Assembly: GCA_027483445.1 (NCBI GenBank)
Contig: JAIXUS010000014.1
Span: 1-45,799, forward strand
Direction: 5' to 3'
DNA length: 45,799 nt
From: Bacteroidota bacterium
Lineage (GTDB): Bacteria; Bacteroidota; Bacteroidia; M30B66
In this document: one piece after another, positions 2,992-37,802 of the stretch
Numbering within the stretch: the stretch's first letter is position 1
Layout: every line of letters begins with the position of its first letter
Program-made: the position numbers and the translations under genes
Notes under the pieces: generated by a model
Databases searched by the model: none
The model's input: the letters and a program-made list of their open reading frames with translations, nothing else
What the model was told of the DNA's origin: nothing

Positions 2992-3015
2992 AGGTAAACT
3001 CTATGTCCTTTAGAC

Positions 3016-3050
3016 AAAGAGCCCCACTTCCGGGCAGAAGCGGGGTCTTT
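3016..3050 (-). terminator. Imperfect hairpin between lamin-tail gene and receptor
   Basis: An imperfect stem (CCCC/GGGG core with flanking AAAGA/TCTTT and CTTC/GAAG arms) lies between the two minus-strand genes. The T-run after it is weak. It may be a partial terminator or attenuator separating the lamin-tail gene from the receptor operon. Confidence 0.4.
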
Positions 3051-3081
3051 GGTTAAGCATCGTTTGTATCTGCCCAGAAAT

Positions 3082-4104: not shown

Positions 4105-4123
4105 AGTCGTTTTTTAACAGCCG

Positions 4124-4131
4124 CAAAATTA
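4124..4131 (-). promoter_or_regulatory. -7 element of the lamin-tail gene
   Basis: The minus strand reads TAATTTTG, an exact match to the Bacteroidota -7 consensus TAnnTTTG, about 19 bases before the start codon at 4104. No clear -33 TTG is seen at the usual spacing. Confidence 0.45.
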
Positions 4132-4193
4132 CTGTTTTCTTCTTTGACCCTAGCTTTAACCTTGCGTTAAGTTCAGTATTAACTTAGGTTGCA

Positions 4194-4223
4194 TTTGAGG
4201 CTTGGTTTTCCTTCCTATATTTG
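4194..4223 (+). promoter_or_regulatory. Promoter of the deoxyhypusine-synthase-like gene
   Basis: A -33 TTTG at 4194-4197 and an exact -7 element TATATTTG at 4216-4223 are separated by 18 bases, which fits the Bacteroidota housekeeping promoter. Transcription would start near 4229. This excludes the upstream ATG at 4202 and supports the start at 4244. Confidence 0.7.
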
Positions 4224-4243
4224 CCGCCGCTAAACGAAACCGC

Positions 4244-5218
4244 ATGAACAAGGGCCCGATTTCTCAATTTATGGAGACACATTACCTCCATTTCAACGCA
4301 GCTGCTATGGTTGATGCCGCTAAAGGCTATGAACAACACCTGCTCGAAGGAGGGAAAATGATGATCACCCTCGCCGGGGCAATGAGTACCGCAGAGTTGG
4401 GGAAATCTCTGGCCGAAATGATTCGCCAAGGCAAAGTCGATATCATCTCCTGCACAGGTGCCAACCTCGAAGAAGACATCATGAACCTTGTGGCACACAG
4501 CCATTACAAGCGTGTTCCCAATTACCGCGACTTAAGCCCACAAGATGAATGGGACTTGCTGGAGGATGGCTTCAATCGGGTTACCGATACCTGCATTCCT
4601 GAAGAGGAAGCCTTTCGTCGCATTCAAAAGCACATCCACAAACAGTGGAAAACCGCCCAAGACAATGGCGAGCGTTATTTCCCTCATGAATACATGTACA
4701 AAATGCTGCTTTCGGGCGAAATGGAGCAGTACTATGAAATCGACCCCCGCAATTCATGGATGATTGCCGCCGCAGAACGCAACTTGCCAATCGTAGTTCC
4801 AGGCTGGGAAGATTCTACCATGGGTAACATATTTGCTTCATACGTTATTAAAGGCGAACTTAATGCTTCCACCATGAAATCGGGCATCGAATACATGGTG
4901 TGGCTCTCCGAATGGTACCGGGCAAACTCAGCCGGTAAAGGCGTCGGCTTTTTCCAAATCGGTGGAGGCATCGCAGGAGATTTCCCTATTTGCGTTGTAC
5001 CCATGATGTATCAGGATTTGGAATGGCATGATGTTCCTTTCTGGGCTTATTTCTGTCAAATTTCCGATTCTACCACCAGTTACGGCTCATATTCAGGCGC
5101 TGTTCCGAACGAAAAAATTACGTGGGGAAAACTGGATAAAGAAACGCCTAAGTTCATCGTTGAGTCAGATGCCACAATTGTCGCCCCTCTTATCTTTGCC
5201 TGGATTTTAGGCTGGTAA
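4244..5218 (+). CDS. Deoxyhypusine synthase family protein lacking the catalytic lysine
   Basis: This 324-residue protein has the deoxyhypusine synthase fold, with the NAD-binding features of the family (MITLAGAMSTAELGKSLAEM, SCTGANLEED). Eukaryotic and archaeal members transfer the aminobutyl group of spermidine to a lysine of eIF5A. Bacteria have no eIF5A, so bacterial members must act on something else, for example in polyamine metabolism. In canonical enzymes a lysine follows the GGG turn and carries the intermediate. Here the sequence is FFQIGGGIAGDFPICVVPM, so Gly occupies that position. The C-terminal block (SDSTTSYGSYSGAVPNEKI, ATIVAPLIFAW) is otherwise well preserved. I chose ATG 4244 over 4202 because a promoter lies between them. 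The DAHP synthase gene follows after 24 bases, probably in one operon. Confidence 0.9.
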   Translation: MNKGPISQFMETHYLHFNAAAMVDAAKGYEQHLLEGGKMMITLAGAMSTAELGKSLAEMIRQGKVDIISCTGANLEEDIMNLVAHSHYKRVPNYRDLSPQDEWDLLEDGFNRVTDTCIPEEEAFRRIQKHIHKQWKTAQDNGERYFPHEYMYKMLLSGEMEQYYEIDPRNSWMIAAAERNLPIVVPGWEDSTMGNIFASYVIKGELNASTMKSGIEYMVWLSEWYRANSAGKGVGFFQIGGGIAGDFPICVVPMMYQDLEWHDVPFWAYFCQISDSTTSYGSYSGAVPNEKITWGKLDKETPKFIVESDATIVAPLIFAWILGW

Positions 5219-5242
5219 ACATCCAAGCCGGCCGCTTGTTTC

Positions 5243-6355
5243 ATGGGTGTGTCAACGCAAACTTCAGCAATCTGGCGAACGCTCTTTGAAACAACTCAGG
5301 GCAGGCCGACCTCGTTACGGCCAGCCACTATTTTTGGGCCATGCAGCGCCGAAAGTGAGGTACAGGTGCTTTCAACAGCTCAGGCTTTAGCCCTAAATTT
5401 CCCCAATAACATCTTCAGAGCCGGTGTGTGGAAACCCAGGTCTCGTCCGGGACATTTCGAAGGCGCCGGCGATGCTGCCTTAGGATGGCTCCAGCAAGTG
5501 CAAAAGCAATACGGTATGCCGGTTGCTACCGAGGTGGCCAATCCCATCCATGTAGAAAAGTGCCTAAAGGCCGGAATTGACGTAGTGTGGATCGGTGCTC
5601 GTACTACGGTCAATCCGTTTGCCGTGCAGGAAATTGCAGAGGCTCTGTCGGGCACCGGATTACCAGTTTTGGTTAAAAATCCCATCAACCCTGATTTACC
5701 CCTTTGGATTGGAGCGGTTGAACGCATACTGCGCACCTCCAAATCGCCGGTTGCAGCCATCCACCGCGGCTTCCATTCTCACGAGTCGAGCGTTTACCGA
5801 AACTCTCCACGTTGGGAGTTGGTCATCGATTTTATGTCGACCATGCCTGGAATCGCTGTGGTATGCGATGCCAGCCATATCAGTGGCGATCCGGTTCTGA
5901 TTCCTAAGGTGGCTCAGAAGGCCCTCGATTTGGATATGCACGGGCTCATGATTGAGACCCATCCCAATCCGCCGGAAGCCTTGAGCGACGCCCGCCAACA
6001 AATTACCCCCGATGCCTTACAAAAACTGATATCCACATTGGTTGTCAGGCAAGTCGATAGCGAAGACCATGACTTTCACCGCAAGCTTCTTGAACTGCGT
6101 TCGCGCGTTGATTCAACCGACGACGCACTGCTGCAGGCATTGGCTACTCGAATAAAGCTCATTCAGGAAATCGGCTCCTACAAAAAAGCGCATGATGTTA
6201 CCATTTTACAACTCAAGCGTTGGGAAGAAATTCTGCAACGGCAACAGCGGGCATCGGTTGAAGCCGGTATTGATGCCGAATTTGTGCGAAAACTATACAC
6301 GCTCATCCATGAGGAATCTATTCGAATCCAAACGGAAATACTGAATAAGTCCTGA
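5243..6355 (+). CDS. Bifunctional DAHP synthase / chorismate mutase (type II)
   Basis: This 370-residue fusion joins the first step of the shikimate pathway to the first step of Phe/Tyr synthesis. Residues about 25-265 are a KDO8P-type DAHP synthase barrel: FGPCSAESEVQVLSTAQAL, FRAGVWKPRSRPG, PVATEV, VWIGARTTVNPF, VLVKNPINPD, a metal-site IHRGF and IETHPNP. It would condense phosphoenolpyruvate with erythrose-4-phosphate. Residues about 278-366 are an AroQ-type helical chorismate mutase (LLELRSRVDSTDDALLQAL, ATRIKLIQEIGSYKKAHDV, IHEESIRIQ). This fusion order is standard in Bacteroidota, where chorismate mutase activity is thought to couple to feedback control of the synthase. It lies 24 bases downstream of the deoxyhypusine-synthase-like gene and 93 bases upstream of an amino acid permease. 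The length is normal. Confidence 0.93.
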   Translation: MGVSTQTSAIWRTLFETTQGRPTSLRPATIFGPCSAESEVQVLSTAQALALNFPNNIFRAGVWKPRSRPGHFEGAGDAALGWLQQVQKQYGMPVATEVANPIHVEKCLKAGIDVVWIGARTTVNPFAVQEIAEALSGTGLPVLVKNPINPDLPLWIGAVERILRTSKSPVAAIHRGFHSHESSVYRNSPRWELVIDFMSTMPGIAVVCDASHISGDPVLIPKVAQKALDLDMHGLMIETHPNPPEALSDARQQITPDALQKLISTLVVRQVDSEDHDFHRKLLELRSRVDSTDDALLQALATRIKLIQEIGSYKKAHDVTILQLKRWEEILQRQQRASVEAGIDAEFVRKLYTLIHEESIRIQTEILNKS

Positions 6356-6448
6356 TTTTTTTTGAATCGACATTAATCTTTGTCGGGAATACTTATTTTG
6401 GCGGTTTAAACGATACGCGGAGAAACGCTACTCCAAAGAAAACTGCCT

Positions 6449-7987
6449 ATGAAACTATTTACGAAGAAACCTCTGCAAGATGTACTCGCGCAGGCCGCCG
6501 AATCAGAGAAGGGTTTAAAGCGAACGCTCGGTGCCGGCAACCTTGTAGCCCTTGGTATTGGGGCTATTATTGGTGCGGGCTTGTTTGTTAGGACGGCCGC
6601 TGCGGCTGGACAAGCAGCAGGACCGGCTGTTACCATTTCCTTTATCATTGCGGCCATTGGCTGCGCCTTCGCCGGTTTATGCTATGCCGAGTTTGCCGCC
6701 ATGATTCCGATTGCAGGAAGTGCCTATGCCTACAGTTATGTAACGATGGGTGAGGTAATCGCATGGATTATTGGATGGGCCCTTATTATGGAGTATGCCT
6801 TAGGTGCGGCAACCGTTGGTATCGCCTGGAGCGAATACCTCAACAAACTACTCGATGGAGGTATACCCTATGAATGGTGCCATTCGCCCTTCGAGAGTTT
6901 CCGCGACTCTATGGGTGTAGTGCATCAGGGAATAATCAACGCACCGGCACTTGTCATTCTCTTTCTGATTACCCTTTTGCTCATTCGTGGTACACAGGAA
7001 AGTGCAATCGTTAATGCGATTATCGTATTTATCAAGGTTGGTATTGTGCTTTTGTTCATTGGGTTTGGATGGCAGTTTATTAACGATGCGAATCACACAC
7101 CATACTTGATTCCTGAGGGTACAGCTCCGGTTTTGGATGGCTCTGGCAAAACATTGGTGAGCTACGATGGTGTGTTTAAGTATGGCTGGGGAGGAGTTCT
7201 AGGAGGCGCTGCAATTGTATTCTTCGCTTTCATTGGTTTTGATGCGGTGAGTACGGCCGCGCAGGAAGCGAAAAATCCGAAGCGCGATATGCCCATCGGT
7301 ATTTTGGGCTCTCTGCTCATTTGTACGGTATTATACATTCTGTTTGGTCACGTATTAACAGGCGTGGCAAACTGGCAAGAATTTGCAGATCCCGAAAAGG
7401 GTCGCGAGGCTTCTGTAGCCTACGCTATCTCGCAATACATGGTAGGTTACGGTTGGCTTGCTACTGCTGTAACAGTGGCCATTTTGGCCGGCTTTTCTTC
7501 GGTGATATTGGTAATGTTAATGGGGCAAAGCCGGATTTTTTACACCATGAGCAACGATGGACTCATTCCAAAGGCATTCGGAGAGTTACACCCGAAGTTT
7601 AAAACGCCATACAAAGCCAACTGGATTTTGTTTGTGTTTGTTGGACTTTTTGCGGCATTTGTACCCGGGCATGTGGCCGGCGACTTAACCAGTTTTGGAA
7701 CGCTCTTCGCGTTCGTGCTGGTTTCTCTTGGGGTTTGGATCTTGCGCATGAGAAGCCCTGAGATTAAACGCCCTTTCAAAACGCCATTGGTGCCCATCAT
7801 TCCCATTTTAGGTGCCATTATTTGCACCGGTATGATTGTAGCGATAGATACCCGAACACTAAAATTTGCTGCCCTTTGGATGGTTATTGGTCTCGTAGTT
7901 TACTTCCTGTACAGCCGTAAGCACAGTAAGCTTCGAAATCCTTCAGATATTCTGCCTCACGCTTCCGACTTCGAAGCCAAGAAGTAA
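6449..7987 (+). CDS. APC superfamily amino acid permease (cationic amino acid transporter type)
   Basis: This 512-residue inner-membrane protein has about 12 to 14 hydrophobic segments. The conserved APC core starts with GAGNLVALGIGAIIGAGLFV, where the GIGAIIGAG loop binds the substrate amino group in this family. FIGFDAVSTAAQEAKNPKRD in the middle and the QSRIFYTMSNDGLIPKAFG loop are hallmarks of the cationic amino acid/YfnA-like branch. It would import amino acids by proton or sodium symport; the exact substrate is not readable. A near-match -7 element (TTATTTTG at 6393-6400) lies upstream, so it may have its own promoter despite following the DAHP synthase on the same strand. A hairpin terminator follows at 8009-8044. 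Confidence 0.93.
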   Translation: MKLFTKKPLQDVLAQAAESEKGLKRTLGAGNLVALGIGAIIGAGLFVRTAAAAGQAAGPAVTISFIIAAIGCAFAGLCYAEFAAMIPIAGSAYAYSYVTMGEVIAWIIGWALIMEYALGAATVGIAWSEYLNKLLDGGIPYEWCHSPFESFRDSMGVVHQGIINAPALVILFLITLLLIRGTQESAIVNAIIVFIKVGIVLLFIGFGWQFINDANHTPYLIPEGTAPVLDGSGKTLVSYDGVFKYGWGGVLGGAAIVFFAFIGFDAVSTAAQEAKNPKRDMPIGILGSLLICTVLYILFGHVLTGVANWQEFADPEKGREASVAYAISQYMVGYGWLATAVTVAILAGFSSVILVMLMGQSRIFYTMSNDGLIPKAFGELHPKFKTPYKANWILFVFVGLFAAFVPGHVAGDLTSFGTLFAFVLVSLGVWILRMRSPEIKRPFKTPLVPIIPILGAIICTGMIVAIDTRTLKFAALWMVIGLVVYFLYSRKHSKLRNPSDILPHASDFEAKK

Positions 7988-8008
7988 AGAGCATAATTGG
8001 AAGGCATG

Positions 8009-8044
8009 ATTGCCCTTGTTGACAAACCTGTCGGCAAGGGCAAT
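8009..8044 (+). terminator. Hairpin terminator after the permease
   Basis: ATTGCCCTTG (8009-8018) pairs perfectly with CAAGGGCAAT (8035-8044), with a 16-base loop and a short TTTT run after it. This is a plausible intrinsic terminator; the loop is long and the T-run short. Confidence 0.6.
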
Positions 8045-8073
8045 TTTGGTTTAACCGCATCGAAGTTTTATCG

Positions 8074-8286
8074 GGGGCCTGCAGAGAAATTCAGAAATCC
8101 AGAAGATGCTAGCCGTGGGAAAAGAAGTAGATGCTGCATTTCTGGCTAACGAAGTGTTGAGCTTTGCACATTCAAAAGTGCATGGAATTTTTAAAGCCAA
8201 ACTAAAAACCTCGCACCAAGTACGAATGAATCTGGGCTTAATGTGTATTGAGTAAACCTATTGACTGTTTTTCAGTGAATCTTATG
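8074..8286 (+). mobile_element. Decayed copy of the MITE-like element found at 45311-45566
   Basis: This stretch aligns with the reverse complement of the element at the end of the window. The block at 8127-8152 (GATGCTGCATTTCTGGCTAA and onward) differs from its counterpart by about one or two bases in 28. Homology continues to the right end (CTATTGACTGTTTTTCAGT against CTATTGAGTGCTTTTCAGT). The left end (GGGGGCCTGCAGAGAAATTC) matches the other copy's TAGGGCTTACTGAAAAAGTC only loosely. About 40 bases of the interior are missing, so this copy has lost its inverted repeats. A 49-codon frame (8107-8256) reads DAAFLANE and VHG..KA.LKT, residues shared with the other copy, so it may derive from coding sequence. 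I treat it as a relic, not a gene. The rest, to 8487, is AT-rich leader with nothing else clear. Confidence 0.6.
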
Positions 8287-8502
8287 TAAGAAACCCGCTT
8301 GTATTGTAATTTAATTGTTACTTTTGACTCGGATTAAGGTTCTTTTCCAACTTATGTTTCGAAATACTTGTGCGATTGTGAATTTTAAAATTCTCACAAT
8401 CATCTACTTGGTTTTTCTTTTGTGAATAACTTCTTACATGTGAAACTTTATTCGAAATTTGTGGTATCAGAACACATCTAACAAACAGTGAAACTCATTT
8501 AC

Positions 8503-10329
8503 ATGATGAATATCAACTCAATTAAATGCGCCGCTATCACAGCATTAGTGGCGCTTGGTGTGAATAGCGCTTCTGCTCAATCGGAAGGTTGCTATGGTGC
8601 AAGTGTATTTCAGGTTAGTCAGGGTTTGACCAAAATCAACACGCCTGTTAACACTGAACGTTCGAATCCAGAAAATGCCTTAGGTGCTCCCAACGGTCAG
8701 AATCCTCCAATTTTCGCGAGCGAACAGTTTTTCTTTTCACTCGGTTTTGGTGGTTCAATTGTAATTCAGTTTGAACAGCCAATCGCCAATGGCGAAGGAG
8801 CTGACATCCGTATTTGGGAGTCTTCTGCCAGTTCAAATCAAGAGAAAGCTACCGTTCTTGTTTCTCAAAATGGTATCAACTTTATCGAGGTAGGTCAAAT
8901 TCAGCAAACCGGAGAGGTTGATTTCGGTGATGTATTTAGCGATTACATCAACTTCGTGAAAATTCAGGATAGCTCTAACCCAAACAGCTTTGGTAACAGT
9001 CAAATTTCAGACGGTTACGATGTCGACGCTGTGGAGTGTTTACATGGTGCTTTCCTGATTCCTAATCCAAATGCCTGCTACGCTGATTCAGTGGTTTCTT
9101 TCAATCAGCGCAAGCAAAACGATGGTTCAATCATCAGCGAAGCGCGCAGCAATCCGGATAAAGCACTCGGAGCTCCACAAGACAATGACACAGAAAACTT
9201 CGTGTCGCTTGGATTTGGTGGTGACATTACTCTTCGCTTTGCTTCACCAATCAAAAATGGAGAAGGCGCCGATGTTCGCGTAATCGAAACCACCTTTGGC
9301 TCAATGAGCAACAACTGCAACCGTTACCCTGAAACCATTCGTGTATTTGCCTCACAAGACAATTGCAACTGGGTTTGGTTAGGCGACGATTGTCAGGATG
9401 CTGACTTTGACCTCGGTTCATTGGGCTGGGCGCAGTACATTAAATTGGTAGACATTTCAAATGTAAATGCGCCATATCAGGGAACACCGATTGCCGATGC
9501 ATACGACGTAGACGCTGTAATGTGTTTGAATGGATTCGAAGAAAACCCAGTACCAGCAGTGATTACTGAAGGTGCTTCTGAAGTAATCGGCTATACTGAA
9601 GGTCCTCGTAGAAATGGAACCGAGATTGCGGATTCACGCACCCATCCAACAAATGCTCTTGGTGTACCTCAAGGTACTGACGTAGTGAACTTTGTATCAT
9701 TAGGTTTCGGTGGTCAGCTGATTTTGAAGTTCCCTTATGTAATTTTCGACAATCCACTCACTCCAGATCTTCAAGTGGTTGAAACAACATTCGGAGGCCT
9801 TACCTGCACGCAGTACCCTGAAACTGCCGATATCGAAGGCTCTTTAGATGGTGAAAACTGGGTTTACTTGGGCACTATCTGCTTAGATGACGTGATTGAT
9901 ATTACTTCTGCCGGAGTAATTCAATACATTCGAATTACTGACCGTACTCCCGCAACATCTTTCAATGGTTCTGCTGATGGATACGATGTTGACGGTGTGG
10001 TAGTGATCAATCAAGAGTGTGGTGGAGCTACTCCTGCCCGTGTTGGCGATAACACCAATACTCCTGATGAGGTAATCAGCATGGAGCTTTTCCCTAACCC
10101 TGCTAAAGAATCTGCTACTTTGGTGTTAACCACAGGCAGCGACGATAGCAACATCATGATTACCGTAAACAACTATTTGGGTCAGTCTGTGATGACCGAC
10201 AGACTCAATGTGACATCATCTTCAGTAATCAACCACACGTTGAGCTTGGACGGCCTGAAGCCAGGTATCTATTTCGTAACAGTGGAGTCGAACTCAACTC
10301 GCGAAATCATTAAATTGGTAAAGAACTAA
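8503..10329 (+). CDS. T9SS-exported surface protein with three SLGFGG/DGYDVD domains (paralogue 1)
   Basis: This 608-residue secreted protein starts with a signal peptide (INSIKCAAITALVALGVNSA, cut near SAQS). It has three copies of one domain of about 150 residues: residues 30-182, 192-344 and 362-506. Each has NALGAP or NALGVP, then SLGFGG, then NGEGAD or similar, ET or ES, CNRYPE or CTQYPE, a DG..WV.LG strand, and ends in DGYDVD or DAYDVD. The pattern suggests a lectin- or discoidin-like beta-sandwich, with the Asp-rich end loop possibly binding calcium; this is inference. The C-terminal 90 residues (MELFPNPAKESATLVL, GLKPGIYFVTVE, IIKLVKN) are a T9SS type A sorting domain. The start could also be GTG 8488 or ATG 8506. 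It opens a five-gene paralogous cluster and ends at a strong terminator. Confidence 0.9.
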   Translation: MMNINSIKCAAITALVALGVNSASAQSEGCYGASVFQVSQGLTKINTPVNTERSNPENALGAPNGQNPPIFASEQFFFSLGFGGSIVIQFEQPIANGEGADIRIWESSASSNQEKATVLVSQNGINFIEVGQIQQTGEVDFGDVFSDYINFVKIQDSSNPNSFGNSQISDGYDVDAVECLHGAFLIPNPNACYADSVVSFNQRKQNDGSIISEARSNPDKALGAPQDNDTENFVSLGFGGDITLRFASPIKNGEGADVRVIETTFGSMSNNCNRYPETIRVFASQDNCNWVWLGDDCQDADFDLGSLGWAQYIKLVDISNVNAPYQGTPIADAYDVDAVMCLNGFEENPVPAVITEGASEVIGYTEGPRRNGTEIADSRTHPTNALGVPQGTDVVNFVSLGFGGQLILKFPYVIFDNPLTPDLQVVETTFGGLTCTQYPETADIEGSLDGENWVYLGTICLDDVIDITSAGVIQYIRITDRTPATSFNGSADGYDVDGVVVINQECGGATPARVGDNTNTPDEVISMELFPNPAKESATLVLTTGSDDSNIMITVNNYLGQSVMTDRLNVTSSSVINHTLSLDGLKPGIYFVTVESNSTREIIKLVKN

Positions 10330-10352
10330 AACGTTCCTAATACCTCTTGAAA

Positions 10353-10388
10353 AAGGGGGCTGGTCAACTGACCGGCCCCCTTTGCTTT
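10353..10388 (+). terminator. Strong intrinsic terminator
   Basis: AAGGGGGC..GGTC pairs with GACC..GCCCCCTT around an AACT loop, followed by GCTTTTT. It ends transcription of the first cluster gene. Confidence 0.85.
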
Positions 10389-10678
10389 TTACCGGTTTAT
10401 TTGAAAGCATTGGCCATCACGCCATAAAGCCCTCTTTTCTGATTTTATAGAACCTAGATGTTCTTTCATTTTTGTGTTCATGCGCCTTGATGTATACCTG
10501 CTTTGAAAAGCAACGCAGTTTTGCCAGATAGCCTCTGATTGTGGCATTTTAAATTCAATTCATGAGTCATTGCTTAAAAATGTGCTTATTAATGACGGGA
10601 ACGAAGTTGTTTTCTTTGCTTCACTTTTCATGGTAATAATGTAATAAACTCATTACTAATGAATAACATAAATTTATC
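10389..10678. other. AT-rich intergenic region, no gene seen
   Basis: No open frame of note or RNA gene is visible here. The only structure is a small inverted repeat, AGAAC (10449-10453) with GTTCT (10460-10464). The last 100 bases become very AT-rich as they approach the promoter of the second cluster gene. Confidence 0.5.
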
Positions 10679-10707
10679 TTGTTTTTTTAAATAAAATCTT
10701 ACATTTG
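10679..10707 (+). promoter_or_regulatory. Promoter of cluster gene 2
   Basis: TTG at 10679-10681 and the exact -7 element TACATTTG at 10700-10707 are 18 bases apart, matching the Bacteroidota consensus. The predicted leader to ATG 10761 is about 45 bases. Confidence 0.7.
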
Positions 10708-10760
10708 TAACCTCGATCAAAAAAACGCGTAATACCGAAAACCTAACCAATGCATCGAAT

Positions 10761-12953
10761 ATGAAAAAAACCAACCCTTTCAAATTAGCCTCCTTAGCGC
10801 TCTTTGCAGCGCTGAATTTGGCTAACGCTAATGTGCATGCATCAGGCTCAGTTTCTGTACTGAGTACCCAAGATGAGGTAGCTCCTGCAAACTACCTAAA
10901 TCTGACATCAATGTGCTCGAACAATCCCGCTGAGACACGTCGCTGGAGAGTTCGCAATCAAACCTCAGCGCCGATTAACTACACTTGGGACGTTTACGGA
11001 ACCAACCAGAGCGGCTCTGGTGTGGCTCAGCCAGGCGATAGTTTTTTTGAAACCATCACCGTTCCAGGAAGTCCAAACACAACCCGCATCTTTTGGGTTG
11101 TTGGTACTGCTACTTATTCAAAAGTGAAAGCTTCTGGTGGAGCTCAGTGTCAGGATACTCCTGTTATTCCTCCATGTGGCACCAACCTCATTGTGAATGG
11201 TGGATTTGAAGCCGGAAACTCAGGCTTTACCTCAGGATATACTTTCAAAGTTGACCTTCCAAACGTGAACAATGAAATGATTCCTGAAAACACTTATGGA
11301 GTAGATGACAACATCAACACCTACCATCCTTCTATGTCAGGAACCGGCCGTTCAGGTAACTTCCTCATGGTAAACGGAAATACACAATCTTTAAAAACAG
11401 TTTGGTCTCAAAGTGTGAATGTTATCGCAGGGAAACAATACCAAGTTTCTGCCTGGGTTCAAAACCTTTTCCCTTCCGCACCAGCTGTTCTACGATTCAA
11501 TGTAGCGGGAAATCAAATTGGAACTTTCAGCGCCACCGGAGTTGCTGCATGGCAGGAATTTTCTGCTACTTTTCTGGCTACTACCAATGGTCCGGTAGAC
11601 TTTACCATTGTTAATTCAAACCTTACCAAAATTGGGAATGACTTCGGAATTGATGACATTTCTTTCAGTGAGATTTGCCCTCAGCTTCCTAATACTTGTT
11701 ATGCGGAAATTGTTGTCGATTTCAACCAGAAGAAGCAGAATGACGGATCAACCATTTCAACTGAGCGTAGCGACCCTTCTAAAGCCATAGGCGAACCGCA
11801 AGACAACGACACTGAAAACTTTGTTTCGCTTGGTTTTGGTGGCGATATTACCTTGAAATTCGGCAGCCCAATTAAGAATGGCGAAGGTGCTGACCTCCGT
11901 GTTATTGAAACAACCTTTGGCTCAATGAGCAACAATTGCAACCGTTACCCTGAAACCATCCGTGCATTCGCTTCTCAAGATGGATGTAACTGGGTTTACC
12001 TTGGAGAAGATTGTCAGGATGCAGATTTTGACCTCGGTTCATTAGCTTGGGCTCAGTTTGTGAAACTGGTTGATGCTTCTGATGTAGGAGCTCCTTACCA
12101 AGGAACGCCAATTGCAGACGCTTACGACGTTGATGCTGTAATGTGCCTCAATGGTTACGAAGAAAACCCAGTGCCTGCAGAAGTAACTGAAGGTGCTTCT
12201 GAAGTAATCGGCTACACTGAAGGTCCTCGTAGAAATGGAACTGAGATTGCGGATTCACGAACCCAACCAACAAATGCACTTGGTGTACCACAGGGAACTG
12301 ACGTTGTTAATTTCGTATCTCTCGGTTTTGGTGGATCTATTGTATTGAAGTTCCCTTACGTGATTTTCGACAATCCTAACGCCACAGATCTCGATATCGT
12401 TGAGACCTCTTTCGGAAACCCATCATGTGACGCTTACCCTGAAAGAGCCCTTGTAGAAGGCTCATTGGATGGAGAGAACTGGATCTACCTTGCCGACATT
12501 TGTCTCGATGAGGAAGTTGACATCACTTCTGCTGGTGTGATCCAATACATCCGCATTACAGATCGTTCAGCTGCAAGCTCATTCGGAGGTTCTGCCGATG
12601 GTTTCGATGTTGACGGTGTAGTAGTGATTAACAAAGAATGTGGCACAGGCGAAGTTGAGCGTCGCATTGGCGATAACATCACAACGGCTAACGAAGTGGC
12701 CGGCATTGAAGTGTATCCTAATCCTTTCGATGCAATTACTAACGTAGTAATTTCTACAGGCGATCAAGACAACTTCGCAGTAATCACTGTAAGCAACTAT
12801 CTTGGTCAAGCCATCAGCGCAGAGCGCGTTAATGTTGCTGCCTCATCAGTAATTACACACACCTTAAACCTCGATGCAGTGAAAAGCGGTATCTACTTTA
12901 TTGCGGTAGAAACCAATTCTACTCGCGAAGTGGTTAAAGTGGTGAAGAACTAA
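10761..12953 (+). CDS. T9SS-exported surface protein: NTT module, CBM-like module and two SLGFGG domains (paralogue 2)
   Basis: This 730-residue protein has a signal peptide (residues 1-28, ending VHASG). Residues 45-132 form a module also present in the next gene: LTSMCSNNPAETRRWRVRN, PGDSFFETITV, NTTRIFW, VKASGGAQC. Residues 146-310 look like a carbohydrate-binding-module or DUF642-like jelly roll (LIVNGGFEAGNSGF, WSQSVNVIAGKQYQVSAWVQ, GIDDISF). Two copies of the cluster's domain follow, at 313-466 and 484-628, the second ending ADGFDVDGVVVIN. The C-terminal T9SS type A domain is at about 655-730 (IEVYPNPFDAITNV, VKVVKN). The two repeated domains are very close in DNA sequence to domains 2 and 3 of the gene upstream, which points to recent tandem duplication. 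A carbohydrate- or surface-binding adhesin role is inferred. Confidence 0.9.
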   Translation: MKKTNPFKLASLALFAALNLANANVHASGSVSVLSTQDEVAPANYLNLTSMCSNNPAETRRWRVRNQTSAPINYTWDVYGTNQSGSGVAQPGDSFFETITVPGSPNTTRIFWVVGTATYSKVKASGGAQCQDTPVIPPCGTNLIVNGGFEAGNSGFTSGYTFKVDLPNVNNEMIPENTYGVDDNINTYHPSMSGTGRSGNFLMVNGNTQSLKTVWSQSVNVIAGKQYQVSAWVQNLFPSAPAVLRFNVAGNQIGTFSATGVAAWQEFSATFLATTNGPVDFTIVNSNLTKIGNDFGIDDISFSEICPQLPNTCYAEIVVDFNQKKQNDGSTISTERSDPSKAIGEPQDNDTENFVSLGFGGDITLKFGSPIKNGEGADLRVIETTFGSMSNNCNRYPETIRAFASQDGCNWVYLGEDCQDADFDLGSLAWAQFVKLVDASDVGAPYQGTPIADAYDVDAVMCLNGYEENPVPAEVTEGASEVIGYTEGPRRNGTEIADSRTQPTNALGVPQGTDVVNFVSLGFGGSIVLKFPYVIFDNPNATDLDIVETSFGNPSCDAYPERALVEGSLDGENWIYLADICLDEEVDITSAGVIQYIRITDRSAASSFGGSADGFDVDGVVVINKECGTGEVERRIGDNITTANEVAGIEVYPNPFDAITNVVISTGDQDNFAVITVSNYLGQAISAERVNVAASSVITHTLNLDAVKSGIYFIAVETNSTREVVKVVKN

Positions 12954-12972
12954 TCCAATACGTTTCAGTATC

Positions 12973-13007
12973 AAGCGGACTCTCAATGGAGAGTCCGCTT
13001 TTTTTTT
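12973..13007 (+). terminator. Strong intrinsic terminator
   Basis: AAGCGGACTCTC (12973-12984) pairs perfectly with GAGAGTCCGCTT (12989-13000), followed by a run of at least seven further T. Confidence 0.92.
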
Positions 13008-13108
13008 GCCTAAACTTACATTACTGATTGCCGCTTAGTGGGTCTCTTAAGGCTCATCTGCATGTATTTCGACATTTTAAAATCGGGTTATTCTGACTTA
13101 TTCTTACA

Positions 13109-13174
13109 CCGCATTGCCCTGATGCGGCGAAACCAAGTTCTTTTCTTTTCGTCTGAGGATATGCTGCGAATTGC
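13109..13174 (+). promoter_or_regulatory. Two small hairpins upstream of cluster gene 3
   Basis: CCGCAT (13109-13114) pairs with ATGCGG (13122-13127), and CTGC pairs with GCAG near 13162-13174. They sit just before ATG 13197, where no TAnnTTTG box is found. They could be leader structures or chance; no known riboswitch is recognised. Confidence 0.25.
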
Positions 13175-13196
13175 AGTGTAACGGATCAAATCAGGC

Positions 13197-14900
13197 ATGA
13201 AAAAGAAACTTTCCTTAAACGTTAGGACATCCCTAAAAACAGCACTTCGCCAACGTCTCCTTATTGGATCGGCTGGGTTACTTCTCATCGCAGTAGTAGC
13301 TGGAATGGTCTATTTCAACTTTTTCACTGCCGGCGATTCACGGGCCAGTCAATATGAAGACGGAGTGATTGTCCAAGACCTGCTTCTCACCAGTGTTTGT
13401 TCTGAAAACCCTCAGGTAAGTCGACGTTGGAGAATCAGAAATCCCAATGAATTTGATGTTCCAGTGGAGTGGGATTTGTACCCCTTTATTCAAACCGGTT
13501 TGCTGATTGCGCATCCTGGTGATAATTTTTTCTACACCAATGCCATCAATGGAGCAAATACGACACGGATTCGTTGGCAAGATGAGAATCAAGACTGGCA
13601 ACAACAAGTTAAAGCTTCTTCGGGTCAGTCTTGCGGAAATGGTGGAGGTTGCTTTGCCGCTCAGGTAATTAGTTACACGCCCACAAAGCGAAACGATGGA
13701 TCGAACATTCCTGAAGAACGCAGAAATGCCAGCAAAGCGATTGGAGCACCTGAGAACGACGAATCATCTAATTTCGTGTCGCTTGGGTTTGGTGGTGAGC
13801 TTGTTGTGAAATTTGCTCAGCCAATTGCAAATGGTCAGGGTGATGACTTTAAAGTGGTAGAGAGTACCTTTTCTAACCTGAATTGCAGTCGTTATCCTGA
13901 AAAGGTTCAAGCGTATGCTTCGCAGGATGGCTGCCATTTCGTGTATTTAGGTGAACGTTGTCAGGACGCTCAGTTTGATCTCGGTTCCTTGAGTTGGGCT
14001 CAGTTCATCAAGCTCAGAGATGTGAGTCCTTTTACTCATCCCTTTGGAAACGCAGTGGCCGATGGATACGATGTCGATGGCATTGTTTGCCTGAATGGTT
14101 TGGCTCAAAATCCGGGTGATGATGGGCTTGTGGCCGGCAGTGCGCAAGAGGTGGTATCCTACACACAGGGCACTCGGAAAAATGGTTCTCCTATTCATTC
14201 GTCGCGTACCAATCCTGAAAACGCCTTGGGTGTGCCGCAAAACGACGACATGGGAATTAACTTTACTACGCTAGGCTTTATGGGTTCTATGGTGCTGAAG
14301 TTCGATTATGCAGTGTTCAACAGACCGGGTAATGATCTTCAAGTAATTGAAACATCTTTTGGCCAGCAAACCTGTCAAGGTTATCCAGAAACGGCTTATT
14401 TTGAGGGTTCTCTGGATGGCAATACCTGGTTTCATATTAACGAGATTTGTTTAGATGGATCGCTTGATTTGGGCGATGAAATCTATGCCATTCATTACTT
14501 AAGAATCACAGACAGGTCGGCAGCAACGTTGTTCCCAAATTCGGCCGATGGTTACGATGTCGACGGAGTTACAGTACTCGGTTATGGATGCCCGCAGGAG
14601 AGTCGCATCATGCCATTCGACAGAAATGATGTGCCTGATGAGGTAGCAGAGGCCATCATTTCACCCAACCCATTTAAAGATCAGTTTCAAATTCAATATG
14701 AGAGTGGATCTGTGGCCGAAAAAGTCAATGTTTCGGTGTACAACTATGTAGGTCAACTCGTTCAGCGCGATCAGTTTAGTGTTCCGGCAGCTTCAAAAGT
14801 GGCTCATCCAATTGCCGCCGATCGATTGCCGAAAGGCGTTTATGTTGTCAACCTTGAGTCGGCTGGTTTAACGCAAAGTCTGAAAGTGATAAAAAACTAA
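13197..14900 (+). CDS. T9SS-exported surface protein with NTT module and two SLGFGG domains (paralogue 3)
   Basis: This 567-residue protein starts with a long, basic n-region (MKKKLSLNVRTSLKTALRQR) followed by a hydrophobic segment at residues 21-43, so it is a long signal peptide or signal anchor. Residues 60-148 match the N-terminal module of the preceding protein (LTSVCSENPQVSRRWRIRNP, PGDNFFYTNAINGANTTRI, VKASSGQSC). Two copies of the cluster's domain follow: about 152-305 (ASKAIGAPEN, SLGFGG, CSRYPE, DGYDVDGIVCL) and 319-465 (NALGVPQN, TLGFMG, CQGYPE, DGYDVDGVTVL). The C-terminus (ISPNPFKDQFQIQY, LPKGVYVVNLES, LKVIKN) is a T9SS type A domain. It lacks the jelly-roll module of paralogue 2. 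A surface adhesin or binding role is inferred. Confidence 0.9.
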   Translation: MKKKLSLNVRTSLKTALRQRLLIGSAGLLLIAVVAGMVYFNFFTAGDSRASQYEDGVIVQDLLLTSVCSENPQVSRRWRIRNPNEFDVPVEWDLYPFIQTGLLIAHPGDNFFYTNAINGANTTRIRWQDENQDWQQQVKASSGQSCGNGGGCFAAQVISYTPTKRNDGSNIPEERRNASKAIGAPENDESSNFVSLGFGGELVVKFAQPIANGQGDDFKVVESTFSNLNCSRYPEKVQAYASQDGCHFVYLGERCQDAQFDLGSLSWAQFIKLRDVSPFTHPFGNAVADGYDVDGIVCLNGLAQNPGDDGLVAGSAQEVVSYTQGTRKNGSPIHSSRTNPENALGVPQNDDMGINFTTLGFMGSMVLKFDYAVFNRPGNDLQVIETSFGQQTCQGYPETAYFEGSLDGNTWFHINEICLDGSLDLGDEIYAIHYLRITDRSAATLFPNSADGYDVDGVTVLGYGCPQESRIMPFDRNDVPDEVAEAIISPNPFKDQFQIQYESGSVAEKVNVSVYNYVGQLVQRDQFSVPAASKVAHPIAADRLPKGVYVVNLESAGLTQSLKVIKN

Positions 14901-14922
14901 TATATCTTACGTCTCACTTTAT

Positions 14923-14949
14923 AGCCCGGTCACTCCGGGCTTTTTTTTT
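14923..14949 (+). terminator. Strong intrinsic terminator
   Basis: AGCCCGG (14923-14929) pairs with CCGGGCT (14935-14941) around TCACT, followed by nine T. Confidence 0.88.
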
Positions 14950-14953
14950 GGCT

Positions 14954-14982
14954 TGAAATTCTTTCAGTTTGCAATACTTTTG
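14954..14982 (+). promoter_or_regulatory. Promoter of cluster gene 4
   Basis: TTG at 14954-14956 and the exact -7 element TACTTTTG at 14975-14982 are 18 bases apart. The ATG at 14953 falls within this promoter, so the real start must be ATG 15016. Confidence 0.7.
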
Positions 14983-15015
14983 GGTTTTAACCCTAACCCT
15001 AATCACATCACAAAC

Positions 15016-16404
15016 ATGAAACAAACTTACTTTGGTTCCAGCGTAGTCGCTTTGATGCTGGGATGTCTTGTTTTTCAGCCACTTAAGACAGAGGCGCAAA
15101 GCAATAATTGTGGAATTACCATTGCGTCCGTAGAGAGCTTTCTGCCTGGGAAACGCCGCGATGGGTCTTTGATTCCCGGACAATTTTTGAATACTCAGAA
15201 TGTTATTGGCGCTCCTCAGAATTCTGATGCCGGAGCTTTGAATTATGTGTCTTTGGGATTTAACGGTGAGATTACCGTTAAACTAAGCGGTAAAATTTCT
15301 AACGGTGAAGGCGCTGATTTTCGTCTCGTTGAAACAACCACCAATCCAATTATAAATACCTGCAACCGTTACCCTGAGCGTGTTGAGGTTTTTGGCTCAC
15401 AGGATGGATGTAACTTCGTTTGTCTCGGGATTATCTGTCAAGATGCGAATATCGATCTTGCTGGCAGCGGCCTAGAGTGGATTGAGTATGTAAAGCTTCA
15501 CGATGTAAGCCCTGTTCTGAACCCTTTCAATAATGATACAGAGGCCAATGGATACGATTTAGACGGAATTACCTGCTTGTCGGGGGCTGCTCAAAATCCA
15601 ACTCCGAATACTACATTCTTGGCCGGCTATCCCCGGAATTTTATGGATTACATGCCTGCCAATCCTACTACTATTCCTCTTTCACGGAGAAATCCGGTGA
15701 ATGCAACCGGAGCTCCTCAGAACAACAATGGAACGCCAATCACCTTTGTTTCATTGGGCTTTAACGGAGAAATTACCTTAGTATTCGATTATGTGGTGTT
15801 CGATAAAGAAGGTCCAGATTTGTTTGTAACAGAAACTTCCGGTTCTACCAATTACCCTGAAAGAGCTGAGTTGTATGGTTCAACGTGTGGGTCGAACTGG
15901 GTGTTGTTGAATAACACTGAAGATGGAAATGTATTAACTCAAGACGGCTGGGTTGATTTCTCTGGTTCCATTTATGCCTTGAAATACCTCCGCATTATCG
16001 ATCGCAGTCGTCGCAGTCAGTTTACCGGTGCAGCCGATGGATACGATGTTGACGGAGTAACGGTGATTAATGGAAGCCAATGCACTCCTGGAACTTCGAT
16101 CAGCGCTGCCCGCCTTGATGATGGTCTTAGCCAGGTGCCTGATGAAGCGGGTAGAGTGGAAGTGTTTCCAAACCCTTTCCATGGATTAACACAACTGCAA
16201 CTAACCGCTGGTTCTGCCGATGAGGTATTTGAATTGAACCTTAACAGCATTACCGGACAGCGTATTTCTTCTGAGCGTGTATCTATTGCTGCCGGAGAGA
16301 GTCTTCAACGTTCCATTGATTTGAGTGCTTTTACAAAAGGAATTTACATACTTGAATTGAGAGGCACTTACGGAGTTGAAACGCTAAAGCTGATCAATCA
16401 GTAA
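15016..16404 (+). CDS. T9SS-exported surface protein with two SLGF(N)G domains (paralogue 4)
   Basis: This 462-residue protein starts at ATG 15016, just downstream of a consensus promoter. The signal peptide (MKQTYFGSSVVALMLGCLVF) ends near TEAQS. Domain copy 1 covers residues 32-196 (NVIGAPQNS, SLGFNGEITV, NGEGADFRLVETT, CNRYPERV, NGYDLDGITCL). Copy 2 covers 210-350 (NATGAPQNN, SLGFNGEI, NYPERAELYGS, DGYDVDGVTVIN). Both copies have SLGFNG where the other paralogues mostly have SLGFGG, so they diverged together. The T9SS type A domain is at about 375-462 (VEVFPNPFHGLTQLQL, FTKGIYILELRG, LKLINQ). The ligand is unknown. It is probably an exported binding protein like its neighbours. Confidence 0.9.
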   Translation: MKQTYFGSSVVALMLGCLVFQPLKTEAQSNNCGITIASVESFLPGKRRDGSLIPGQFLNTQNVIGAPQNSDAGALNYVSLGFNGEITVKLSGKISNGEGADFRLVETTTNPIINTCNRYPERVEVFGSQDGCNFVCLGIICQDANIDLAGSGLEWIEYVKLHDVSPVLNPFNNDTEANGYDLDGITCLSGAAQNPTPNTTFLAGYPRNFMDYMPANPTTIPLSRRNPVNATGAPQNNNGTPITFVSLGFNGEITLVFDYVVFDKEGPDLFVTETSGSTNYPERAELYGSTCGSNWVLLNNTEDGNVLTQDGWVDFSGSIYALKYLRIIDRSRRSQFTGAADGYDVDGVTVINGSQCTPGTSISAARLDDGLSQVPDEAGRVEVFPNPFHGLTQLQLTAGSADEVFELNLNSITGQRISSERVSIAAGESLQRSIDLSAFTKGIYILELRGTYGVETLKLINQ

Positions 16405-16425
16405 TCGGAAATCAAATCTGCTTTT

Positions 16426-16456
16426 TGGGGTCGTCTTCTTCTGGAGGGCGGCCCCA
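16426..16456 (+). terminator. Probable terminator
   Basis: TGGGGTCG and CGGCCCCA can pair around a loop of about 15 bases, followed by TTTTATTT. The stem contains a mismatch, so this is less certain than the other cluster terminators. Confidence 0.45.
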
Positions 16457-16615
16457 TTTTATTTAAATTAGGTTGAATTCTTTTGTGCTCTATTAAATTT
16501 AGATGTTAAAAATAATATGTAGATGCAAAATGAATAATAAATATAATAATTAAATTATTGATGTGTATTTTGGGGATTATTCACTACATGTGTATAAAAA
16601 ACAGGGTCTAACCCC

Positions 16616-16646
16616 TTGTAAGATTCAAATGGGTTTTATACGTTTA
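16616..16646 (+). promoter_or_regulatory. Probable promoter of cluster gene 5
   Basis: TTG at 16616-16618 and TACGTTTA at 16639-16646 (one mismatch to TAnnTTTG) are 20 bases apart, upstream of ATG 16673. Confidence 0.45.
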
Positions 16647-16672
16647 CCATGATTTAACCTAATAATTCTTAC

Positions 16673-18160
16673 ATGAAAACCTTGACTCATTACCTGCCAA
16701 TTGCTTTGGCGGCTGCATGTCTCACCCTGAGTGCATCGGAGACCATAGCACAACCAATCTACCCACAAACGGTGGTAAATTACAGCCCAGGCCCTACAGC
16801 CGATTTTTTGGGAAGTATTCCAGATCAGCGCGACGATGAAACCAACGCCATTGGTGTTCCTGCCGATAGCGACATCGATAGCGGCGAGCAGAATGGAAAC
16901 AGCCTTTCTGTAAATTTCACCTCATTGGGGTTTGGTGGTAGCATCACCTTAATGTTTGACCAGCCTTTTGGTCGCGGAGAAGGCACTGACTTAGAAATTA
17001 TCGAGACTTCCTACAACACGCCTTCTTGTGAATCATGGCAAGAGTTTGCCGATGTTTACATTTCACAAGATGGTTGTTCTTGGATTCAGGTTGCCGACAA
17101 TCAGTGTCAAAACTTTGGCGTTGAGCTTCCTGATGCAATGCCTTGGGCTTTGTTTGTACGCATCGTTGACGCTTCTCCTGCCGATGCGTTTTCTCCGAAT
17201 GCTGATGGATACGACGTGGATGGTGTACGCGCCAATTACATTTCTAATGTAGCCCTAATCACTGATCTAACTGCACCACGTTGGGCTAACGGATGGAGCA
17301 ATTTCATTCAAGGTTCCATTAAAGGCAACAACAATCTGCCAGCTTTGAACCGCCGCAATCCAGACAAAGCTGTTGGGTCTACTTCAGGAAGTGATGCTGC
17401 TCAGTCGCCCTTGTTCGTTTCGTTGGGCTTTGACCGTGCTTCTACAACCGATGTTACGGAAGGCCAAATTACTCTTGAGTTTACCTACACAATCGTAGAT
17501 CGCACAGGTGCTGATCTTGAAGTGTTTGAAACCACTTTTGGCGATAACTCTACTCGTCCGTGCACCAACTACCCTGAGATTGCAGAGTTTTGGGGCTCTA
17601 ACGACGGGGTAAACTTCACTTTGTTGGCGGCCGATCCTTCTTCAAATGAGCCTGATGATGCGTCTTTGGGCGGTTCAGGTCGTTTGTGCCGCGATGGTAA
17701 GCTGGATATCAGCGGAATGCCCGGTGGAACTTTACGTTTCCTTCGCATCATCGATAAATCAATTCGTACCTCAAATCGTTTCCCTGGCTCTGCCGATGGT
17801 TATGATGTGGATGCTGTTTTCGGATATGGTTGTGATGCTGAGAGCAATGGCGGGAAATACGCCTTTGTAGATCAGAACAATTATCCTGACGAAGATCCTT
17901 CTGTATTCATGATGGGTATGTTCCCTAACCCAACTAACGATGTAATCAATTTGAACATTGAGACCTCAACAATCGACCAGACTTACTTTGTGCGTTTGTT
18001 CGACATTACCGGTCGCGTTGTACACCAGGAAAATGTGTTTGGTGCAGCAAACAATAGCATTAACACTGTAATTTCAGTGGCTCACCTTCCAGCAGGCGTT
18101 TACACGCTTTCTGTTGATGCCAATGGTTACAAGCAAGTTGATAAGTTGATCAAGAATTAA
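16673..18160 (+). CDS. T9SS-exported surface protein with two SLGFGG-type domains (paralogue 5)
   Basis: This 495-residue protein has a signal peptide (MKTLTHYLPIALAAACLTLS, ending near TIAQP). Domain copy 1 is at residues 32-195 (NAIGVPADSD, SLGFGGSITLMF, GRGEGTDLEIIETS, DGYDVDGVRANY). Copy 2 is at 195-388 (DKAVGSTSGSD, SLGFDRA, ADLEVFETTFGD, CTNYPEIAEFWGS, DGYDVDAVFGYGC). Copy 2 is longer than those of the other paralogues because of insertions after SLGF and before the last strand. The C-terminal T9SS type A domain is at about 415-495 (MGMFPNPTNDVINLNI, LPAGVYTLSVDANG, DKLIKN). It is the last and most divergent member of the cluster. It is followed by a terminator pair that also serves the convergent response regulator gene. 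Confidence 0.9.
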   Translation: MKTLTHYLPIALAAACLTLSASETIAQPIYPQTVVNYSPGPTADFLGSIPDQRDDETNAIGVPADSDIDSGEQNGNSLSVNFTSLGFGGSITLMFDQPFGRGEGTDLEIIETSYNTPSCESWQEFADVYISQDGCSWIQVADNQCQNFGVELPDAMPWALFVRIVDASPADAFSPNADGYDVDGVRANYISNVALITDLTAPRWANGWSNFIQGSIKGNNNLPALNRRNPDKAVGSTSGSDAAQSPLFVSLGFDRASTTDVTEGQITLEFTYTIVDRTGADLEVFETTFGDNSTRPCTNYPEIAEFWGSNDGVNFTLLAADPSSNEPDDASLGGSGRLCRDGKLDISGMPGGTLRFLRIIDKSIRTSNRFPGSADGYDVDAVFGYGCDAESNGGKYAFVDQNNYPDEDPSVFMMGMFPNPTNDVINLNIETSTIDQTYFVRLFDITGRVVHQENVFGAANNSINTVISVAHLPAGVYTLSVDANGYKQVDKLIKN

Positions 18161-18182
18161 AGATTGCTCAATTTGTGATGGG

Positions 18183-18211
18183 AAAGCCGGTTGCACTTGC
18201 ACCGGCTTTTT
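18183..18211 (+). terminator. Intrinsic terminator, plus strand
   Basis: AAAGCCGGT (18183-18191) pairs with ACCGGCTTT (18201-18209) and is followed by T residues. It ends the surface-protein cluster. Confidence 0.8.
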
Positions 18212-18218
18212 TAATGGA

Positions 18219-18253
18219 AAAAGCCCGCGAGATCTATCTATCTGCGGGCTTTT
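18219..18253 (-). terminator. Intrinsic terminator for the response regulator gene
   Basis: AAAAGCCCGC (18219-18228) pairs with GCGGGCTTTT (18244-18253). On the minus strand the stem is followed by a T-rich tail, so it suits the convergent gene ending at 18278. Confidence 0.75.
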
Positions 18254-18277
18254 GTATTCTGTTTCACAACCAAATCT

Positions 18278-18733
18278 CTAAGACTGGCTGGGGAAGTTTT
18301 TCACTTTAAAATCTTTCTCTTTCTTGGCCCCTTTTGCGGGAACTTTCTCTGTATGGCTATCGCCAAAAATCTTTTTTAGAAGGCCTCTCACTTCGTCGAA
18401 AGCCGTACCGTCTTTAACAATAAAGTCGGTAGCTCCCATTTTAAAAGCCGATATTGCCACATTAGGACCCATACCGGAGAGGAAAATTACGTGAATGTCA
18501 GGGTCTAAAGCCTTGATGTGTTGAAGCACTTCAAGGCCCGACATGCCCGGAAGCTGGTGGTCTAAAATTACCACACGAGGCTTGTGCTCTTTGAGGGCTT
18601 CAATGGCTGTTTCGCCGGAGAAGAAAACCTTGATGCCATCGTAATAGTTGGATTCAAGGTCGTAGTTAATCAGATTGGCAAAGAAGGGCTCATCCTCAAC
18701 AATAAAAATCTGGGTATCGGAGCGCTTTTTCAT
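18278..18733 (-). CDS. Single-domain response regulator (REC only)
   Basis: This 151-residue protein is a CheY-like receiver domain. It shows the acidic pair in FIVEDEPFF, the phosphoacceptor Asp in VVILDHQLPGMSGLEVL, the Ser of FLSGMG and the conserved Lys in GATDFIVKDG. Residues about 122-151 are a basic, Lys-rich tail (KVPAKGAKKEKDFKVKNF) with no output domain. It would therefore act by protein contact or as a phosphorelay intermediate, not as a standard transcription factor. I chose ATG 18733 because the receiver starts nine residues after it; the open frame extends further upstream to 18847 without recognisable domain. No sensor kinase gene lies nearby. It converges with the surface-protein cluster, but no functional link can be shown. 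Confidence 0.9.
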   Translation of the reverse strand: MKKRSDTQIFIVEDEPFFANLINYDLESNYYDGIKVFFSGETAIEALKEHKPRVVILDHQLPGMSGLEVLQHIKALDPDIHVIFLSGMGPNVAISAFKMGATDFIVKDGTAFDEVRGLLKKIFGDSHTEKVPAKGAKKEKDFKVKNFPSQS

Positions 18734-37397: not shown

Positions 37398-37790
37398 ACC
37401 TTTCAAGTTTCATGTGCTCAGCATAAATTGTGGTCGATGGCTTCCTTTGGCCTGAAGCTCGCCTGTTTAAGTCAGATCCACTCAGTTTTATCCTTCTCCG
37501 GCAAATCGATTTCCCCGGCTCCTTGAGCACTTCATTCAGCGCATTTGTTTCGAGCTGTACATATCAAAGATTGCGGTGTCACTCGGACTGGTATAGATCA
37601 AGTGAGGCAATTGCCAATTTGCAGAATTCCCGTGTTTCTGTGCATTTAAATTCTGTGCGGAATTTATTTATCTATCAGTAAATGAGGATTATATGTACTT
37701 TGGATTTCTCGCTTCCCTGAAAATCTTACAGATGTAATACCGTGGGGCTTCCCTGTAGTCACTTGCCATTCCGGCTTGCGTAAGGAGATA
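37398..37790. other. Long leader region of the giant PKD gene, no other gene seen
   Basis: About 390 bases hold no recognisable gene. An imperfect -7 element, TACTTTGG at 37696-37703 (7 of 8), and a TCTTACA at 37724-37730 may mark the promoter of the PKD gene. The leader would then be about 90 bases long. Confidence 0.4.
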
Positions 37791-37795
37791 GGAGG
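37791..37795 (+). promoter_or_regulatory. Shine-Dalgarno-like ribosome binding site
   Basis: GGAGG lies seven bases before ATG 37803. Bacteroidota genes seldom use such a site, and none is obvious at the other starts in this window, so it decides the start here and may signal strong translation. Confidence 0.5.
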
Positions 37796-37802
37796 AAAGC
37801 GT

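Follow-up and report, generated by a model that had tools for sequence, protein, structure and literature searches.

Five consecutive genes at positions 8503-18160 of contig JAIXUS010000014.1 (assembly GCA_027483445.1, a Bacteroidota bacterium of the GTDB lineage M30B66) encode tandem copies of one domain, raising the question of what these proteins bind and to which known family the domain is related. The contig was analyzed from position 1 to 45,799 of the forward strand, and this whole stretch is referred to as the window. We assign a probability of roughly 0.6 to the reading that the five genes (g1 to g5) constitute a repurposed set of BtuH-fold surface ligand-binding proteins, the ligand of which would not be free vitamin B12 (cobalamin) but most likely a glycan polymer. 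The original prediction, made from the sequence, had described five neighboring genes sharing one domain in 3, 2, 2, 2, and 2 copies, which the open reading frames (ORFs), the alignment, and leave-one-out profiles all bear out. All five ORFs lie on the plus strand, and the 11 aligned copies (3+2+2+2+2) of a domain of ~155 residues show pairwise identities of 28-82% and 12 invariant columns (G41, L54, G55, F56, G58, D76, E81, E94, S101, D134, D149, and D151). When each copy in turn was left out, a profile built from the remaining ten recovered it with E values from 2e-32 to 6e-67, placing the shared domain far beyond chance. The proposed closing motif DGYDVD applies in general, with a deviation in the first copy of g4 (Table 1). 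The predicted total of eleven holds for the window, while genome-wide we count ~23 copies in 11 genes, plus one relative on contig C46.

No model of Pfam or NCBIfam reaches its cut-off over the domain, so that its description as uncharacterized was correct in this respect. The nearest model is F5/8 type C (PF00754), with marginal matches (E 6e-5) and a best score of 23.6 bits against a gathering score of 28.2. A structure prediction, suggested as a check on the original prediction, was performed with AlphaFold2 for the second copy of g2, based on a 132-row alignment of the window domains and their relatives. It yielded a galactose-binding-like beta-sandwich with a predicted local distance difference test (pLDDT) value of 91.9 and a conserved acidic cluster. 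In VIA-align, the top match of this model was the B12-binding domain of BtuH2 (7BIZ, Z 11.8, 138 residues, 23% identity), followed by the BtuH domain of BtuG1 (8BLW, Z 11.2), a protein with a fused BtuH domain (PMC10404256). Domains of the CBM32/discoidin (F5-8C) type rank next (Z about 9-11) and thus within ~1 Z of the top, for which reason the fold ranking by itself does not separate them from the BtuH entries. The best PDB profile match was again the 8BLW domain, weak with E values of 0.016-0.034.

Support independent of the fold comes from a profile built exclusively from six single-copy relatives, five of them from a sample of the phylum and the sixth being the C46 protein. This B12-locus hidden Markov model (HMM) recovers all 11 window copies (E 4e-6 to 8e-15), with 550 shuffled sequences scoring at most 8.9 bits, and finds 8BLW in the PDB at E 0.002; hhalign relates the domain to the B12-locus alignment at 99.6%. 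The homology of the window domain to the B12-binding domain of BtuH-type proteins is therefore supported, and the computations show a shared ancestry with the BtuH-type proteins of cobalamin-uptake loci. In this second respect the label uncharacterized does not stand. Further searches were rejected as uninformative: coronavirus spike chains retrieved by phmmer with g2 against the PDB are chance matches (E 0.06), Foldseek with the full-length g2 model retrieved nothing but a mixture of multi-domain structures at low TM scores, and a Foldseek comparison with viral structures yielded discoidin-like matches of a generic kind. A phage or defense role was dropped, with PHROGs and PADLOC giving no matches.

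The genomic setting of the single-copy relatives links them to B12 uptake. Across 395 sampled genomes of the phylum Bacteroidota, 45 besides the own genome contain one weak match each to the domain. Among the 27 single-copy loci read, 22 place the gene next to a TonB receptor resembling BtuB, a propeller resembling BtuG, or both; these neighbors were identified with BLAST or family profiles, in most cases without reaching an equivalog cut-off. For 11 of the 27, the ~6 kb read to either side include a cobalamin riboswitch. Two OmpA-linked single copies (L098 and L102) were set aside due to low B12-locus profile scores and lack of B12 neighbors. The own genome contains a sole cobalamin riboswitch (C46:91840), and none is found within the window. 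This riboswitch heads an operon of a TonB receptor (BtuB), a DUF4465 protein, a BtuH-like protein ending in a weak type IX secretion system (T9SS) tail, and a DUF5074 propeller; hence, the genome keeps one single-copy BtuH relative in its own B12 operon. The DUF4465 family, too, binds B12 (PMC13398666). As a separate observation, this B12-uptake operon is complete (L111, C46:89000-101500, at 2841-8666), and both its DUF4465 and its BtuH-like protein bear T9SS-type tails. Capture of B12 via T9SS-tailed proteins in place of lipoproteins is worth attention of its own.

A comparison of the binding site distinguishes the window domains from these relatives. In Bacteroides thetaiotaomicron, BtuH2 is a surface protein that binds B12 through contacts including Gln333, Asn399, and Phe401, and it holds a conserved, probably structural Ca2+ (PMC8941943). 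The 7BIZ sequence has Gln, Asn, and Phe at positions 333, 399, and 401 under one constant offset, in agreement with that report. Our comparison spans these three residues, as the 7BIZ alignment stops before the corrin contacts His476, Tyr510, Trp511, and Trp577. Asn399, which contacts the B12 phosphate, aligns with the Asn following the conserved Glu of the single-copy relatives. This position is Asn in all 27 single-copy relatives in which the motif was located, including three without B12 neighbors in the stretch read (L139, L140, and L149), but in none of 132 domains of the multiplied type, a set gathered via the motif AD[GA]YDVD and thus not blind. Here, Thr, Ser, Val, Ala, or Ile takes its place. 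In addition, the span from E94 to D149 comprises 76-111 residues in the single-copy relatives, while domains of the multiplied type have 53-80 (median 58) and lack an insertion of 20-50 residues, although they retain the conserved acidic residues. Because the Asn399 equivalent is replaced and the loop insertion is gone, the window domains appear to be modules of the BtuH fold whose B12 site has been altered or lost, and the exchange of Asn for Thr or Ser after the conserved Glu offers a diagnostic residue to tell putative B12-binding domains apart from those of the multiplied type.

The same data bear on the alternative that the multiplied domains still capture cobamides as an oversized surface scavenging array feeding the BtuB of the C46 operon. 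Fold and homology relate them to BtuH, most single-copy relatives reside in B12 loci, and the acidic residues are conserved. Against this, all 132 domains have lost the Asn as well as the insertion, the only riboswitch of the genome heads another locus, and ~23 copies with diverged types A and B are ill-suited to a single small ligand. We consider this alternative improbable.

Export by the T9SS to the cell surface, as claimed in the original prediction, is supported. All five proteins carry a T9SS type A C-terminal sorting domain above the cut-offs of PF18962 (Por_Secre_tail) and TIGR04183, and the T9SS sortase PorU is encoded in the same genome (NF033707, 1326 bits). The additional modules were also recognized correctly, with a second (RRWR) module in g2 and g3 and a jelly-roll module in g2. 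The RRWR...VKAS module reappears beside the same domain in records from Cyclobacteriaceae and Flammeovirgaceae (L081 and L085). In the repurposed surface-binder reading, the pair of type A and type B domains, plus type C in g1, would form a short string of two or three sandwich heads anchored outside the cell by the T9SS tail. The calcium-dependent lectin-like fold proposed earlier is supported by the model as far as the beta-sandwich and the conserved acidic cluster are concerned; the acidic residues may hold a structural Ca2+ as they do in BtuH2. The heads would bind an extracellular polymer of a host cell, a particle, or the own matrix, most likely a glycan, at which both the CBM4/16/61-like module of g2 and the CBM32-like fold neighbors hint.

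Evolution of the cluster was followed across relatives. Nine genomes of the same family contain 13-26 copies in eight cases and two in one incomplete genome, while other families of the class have 0-2; the computations thus show a sister form that has been multiplied throughout one Bacteroidota family, to ~23 copies per genome. Outside the Bacteroidota, similar domains occur as single or double copies. Ten Patescibacteria records (L078, L082, L086-L089, L091-L093, and L095) contain the same domain in proteins 340-1800 residues long, mostly once per protein; in one case an fn3 domain accompanies it. Within the own genome, a 1203-aa T9SS protein on contig C62 (L112, 1826-5434) combines three domain copies with a DUF11-like region and a stretch resembling von Willebrand A (VIFVLDESGSID, recognized by eye), and its gene adjoins a reading frame of >2,800 residues bearing the jelly-roll module of g2. 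A paralogue on contig C37 (L115, 4286-5212) shows an in-frame TGA at its start and is possibly a pseudogene or an assembly error.

The flanks of the cluster are constant across the family (w3082, w4202, w5243, and a permease; a response regulator, MscS, and w19971), and orthologues of g1 to g5 appear in constant order. The comparison of gene number suggested with the original prediction revealed mild variation only, g2 or g4 missing in some genomes. In the domain tree, types A, B, and C separate, g3, g4, and g5 form supported one-to-one orthologous clades, and the domains of g1 and g2 group by genus subgroup. A recent duplication of g1 and g2 was rejected, as their synonymous divergence (dS) approaches saturation in each of the two genomes compared. 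The ratio of nonsynonymous to synonymous divergence (dN/dS) between the own genes and those of G004, one species pair, is 0.02-0.06, indicating strong purifying selection.

Regarding expression, the claim of strong terminators behind four of the five genes was confirmed by hairpins with T after g1, g2, g3, and g4. A scan for the Bacteroidota-type promoter motif (TTG-N17-23-TAnnTTTG) matched the plus strand of the window at only five sites, of which three precede g1, g2, and g4, whereas a scan for E. coli-type promoters found fewer sites than in shuffled sequences and was not used. As the match upstream of g4 occupies 14953-14982, we place the start of this gene at the ATG and not at the TTG. 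Judged from these signals, g1 to g5 are probably expressed separately, as had been suggested. It had further been proposed that they represent a variable adhesin or antigen repertoire, expressed singly or shuffled between strains. The separate terminators and promoter motifs, the absence of g2 and g4 in some relatives, and the clustering of g1 and g2 domains within genus subgroups fit this idea. It is nevertheless largely refuted and, in our estimation, very improbable: location and gene order are fixed, dN/dS is low, g3 to g5 are one-to-one orthologues, and no inverted repeats of at least 25 nt are found within 7900-18300. Location, order, selection, and orthology fit a fixed, conserved set, and the five separately transcribed genes would accordingly supply a non-phase-varying set of surface binders.

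Many copies, the tandem A-B architecture, T9SS tails, and strong purifying selection would equally suit structural coat or matrix proteins, in which the tandem sandwiches assemble with one another (S-layer- or matrix-like) instead of binding an outside ligand, as would the existence of long relatives that contain modules of the Ig, HYR, and DUF11 types. Since no homology to S-layer proteins was found and the nearest folds are ligand-binding modules, we regard this explanation as rather unlikely.

Several points weigh against a repurposed glycan-binding set. Besides the motif-based collection of the 132 domains, the Phe401 equivalent is often retained (F/Y) in the multiplied type, and the lost Asn and insertion make a weaker B12 binding expected without proving its absence. 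The BtuH/CBM32/discoidin fold also serves the binding of protein, DNA, and lipid, which leaves the glycan a guess, and the RRWR...VKAS module of g2 and g3 matched no known family, nor was a fold relative identified. Moreover, evolution may have proceeded either way, from BtuH to the surface binder or in reverse.

Taken further, the domain could belong to an undescribed BtuH-sister family of surface modules with members in Bacteroidota, Patescibacteria, Acidobacteriota, and Solirubrobacterales. Here, a vitamin scaffold would have been converted to another ligand class (e.g., glycans), and in one Bacteroidota family the modules would have radiated to a major set of surface proteins with ~20 domains per genome; we put this forward tentatively, at somewhat less than even odds. 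In any case, an unannotated and heavily multiplied surface domain is now tied to a known B12-capture fold. This opens to test the transition from a nutrient-capture domain to a general surface-binding module and the question of what freshwater-type Bacteroidota bind with it, and annotators could assign names to the dozens of proteins in each genome now listed as "hypothetical T9SS proteins". The coordinates of all features are compiled in Table 1. Elsewhere, at 37776-45104, the window encodes a protein of 2442 aa in which eight or more PKD domains are combined with a T9SS tail of type B (CHU_C).

Table 1. Genes, domain copies, modules, and predicted expression signals of the g1-g5 cluster (window positions).
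Feature	Positions	Strand	Remarks
Promoter motif upstream of g1	8299..8326	+	Bacteroidota type
g1	8503..10329	+	608-aa T9SS surface protein, three BtuH-fold domain copies; from ATG 8503
g1 domain copy 1	8581..9066	+	type C
g1 domain copy 2	9049..9552	+	type A
g1 domain copy 3	9541..10032	+	type B
g1 T9SS type A C-terminal sorting domain	10087..10317	+	PF18962, E 9e-10
Terminator after g1	10352..10383	+	14-pair stem, T tract
Promoter motif upstream of g2	10679..10707	+	Bacteroidota type
g2	10761..12953	+	730-aa T9SS surface protein; RRWR module, jelly-roll module, two domain copies
g2 RRWR...VKAS module	10896..11129	+	residues 46-123, predicted 7-stranded beta domain
g2 jelly-roll module	11172..11684	+	residues 138-308; nearest folds CBM4/CBM16/CBM61, Z up to 13.9
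g2 domain copy 1	11670..12173	+	type A
g2 domain copy 2	12162..12653	+	type B; copy used for AlphaFold2 model
g2 T9SS sorting domain	12711..12941	+	modelled fold matches mirolase C-terminal domain (CTD) 8QB1, Z 11.9
Terminator after g2	12973..13000	+	12-pair stem, T8
g3	13197..14900	+	567-aa T9SS surface protein; RRWR module, two domain copies
g3 RRWR...VKAS module	about 13380-13634	+	
g3 domain copy 1	13623..14117	+	type A
g3 domain copy 2	14112..14603	+	type B
Terminator after g3	14923..14941	+	7-pair stem, T8
Promoter motif upstream of g4	14953..14982	+	Bacteroidota type; directly after g3 terminator
g4	15016..16404	+	462-aa T9SS surface protein, two domain copies; ORF open from TTG 14953, ATG 15016 preferred
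g4 domain copy 1	15094..15603	+	type A; closing motif NGYDLD
g4 domain copy 2	15595..16092	+	type B
Terminator after g4	16426..16456	+	14-pair stem
g5	16673..18160	+	495-aa T9SS surface protein, two domain copies
g5 domain copy 1	16766..17260	+	
g5 domain copy 2	17264..17851	+	

A search of full-text literature found BtuH only in B12 capture of Bacteroides and no report pairing BtuH-like domains with T9SS, which is weak evidence given its incomplete coverage. Among known systems, the extra module of g2 resembles CBM4/16/61 modules in its fold, though within the window such a module is confined to this one protein. F5/8 type C (PF00754) and CBM32 domains share the general sandwich fold and marginal matches with the window domain, every one of them lying under the Pfam gathering score. 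DUF4465/BtuJ (PMC13398666) is likewise a surface B12-binding jelly-roll family with a member in the own B12 operon, but the window domain has no PF14717 match and belongs to a separate family. The closest counterparts are BtuH2 and the H domain of BtuG1, from B12-binding surface lipoproteins of Bacteroides (7BIZ and 8BLW; PMC8941943 and PMC10404256), to which the window domain is connected by its beta-sandwich, the core SLG-GG...DF/DL...E...S-DG with conserved acidic residues, the homology via the B12-locus relatives, and a cell-surface location, predicted for the window proteins. It differs in the residue at the Asn399 position and in a shorter loop before the closing motif, and the window proteins carry a T9SS tail in place of the lipoprotein anchor, two to three tandem copies of the domain, and neither an adjoining riboswitch nor BtuB.

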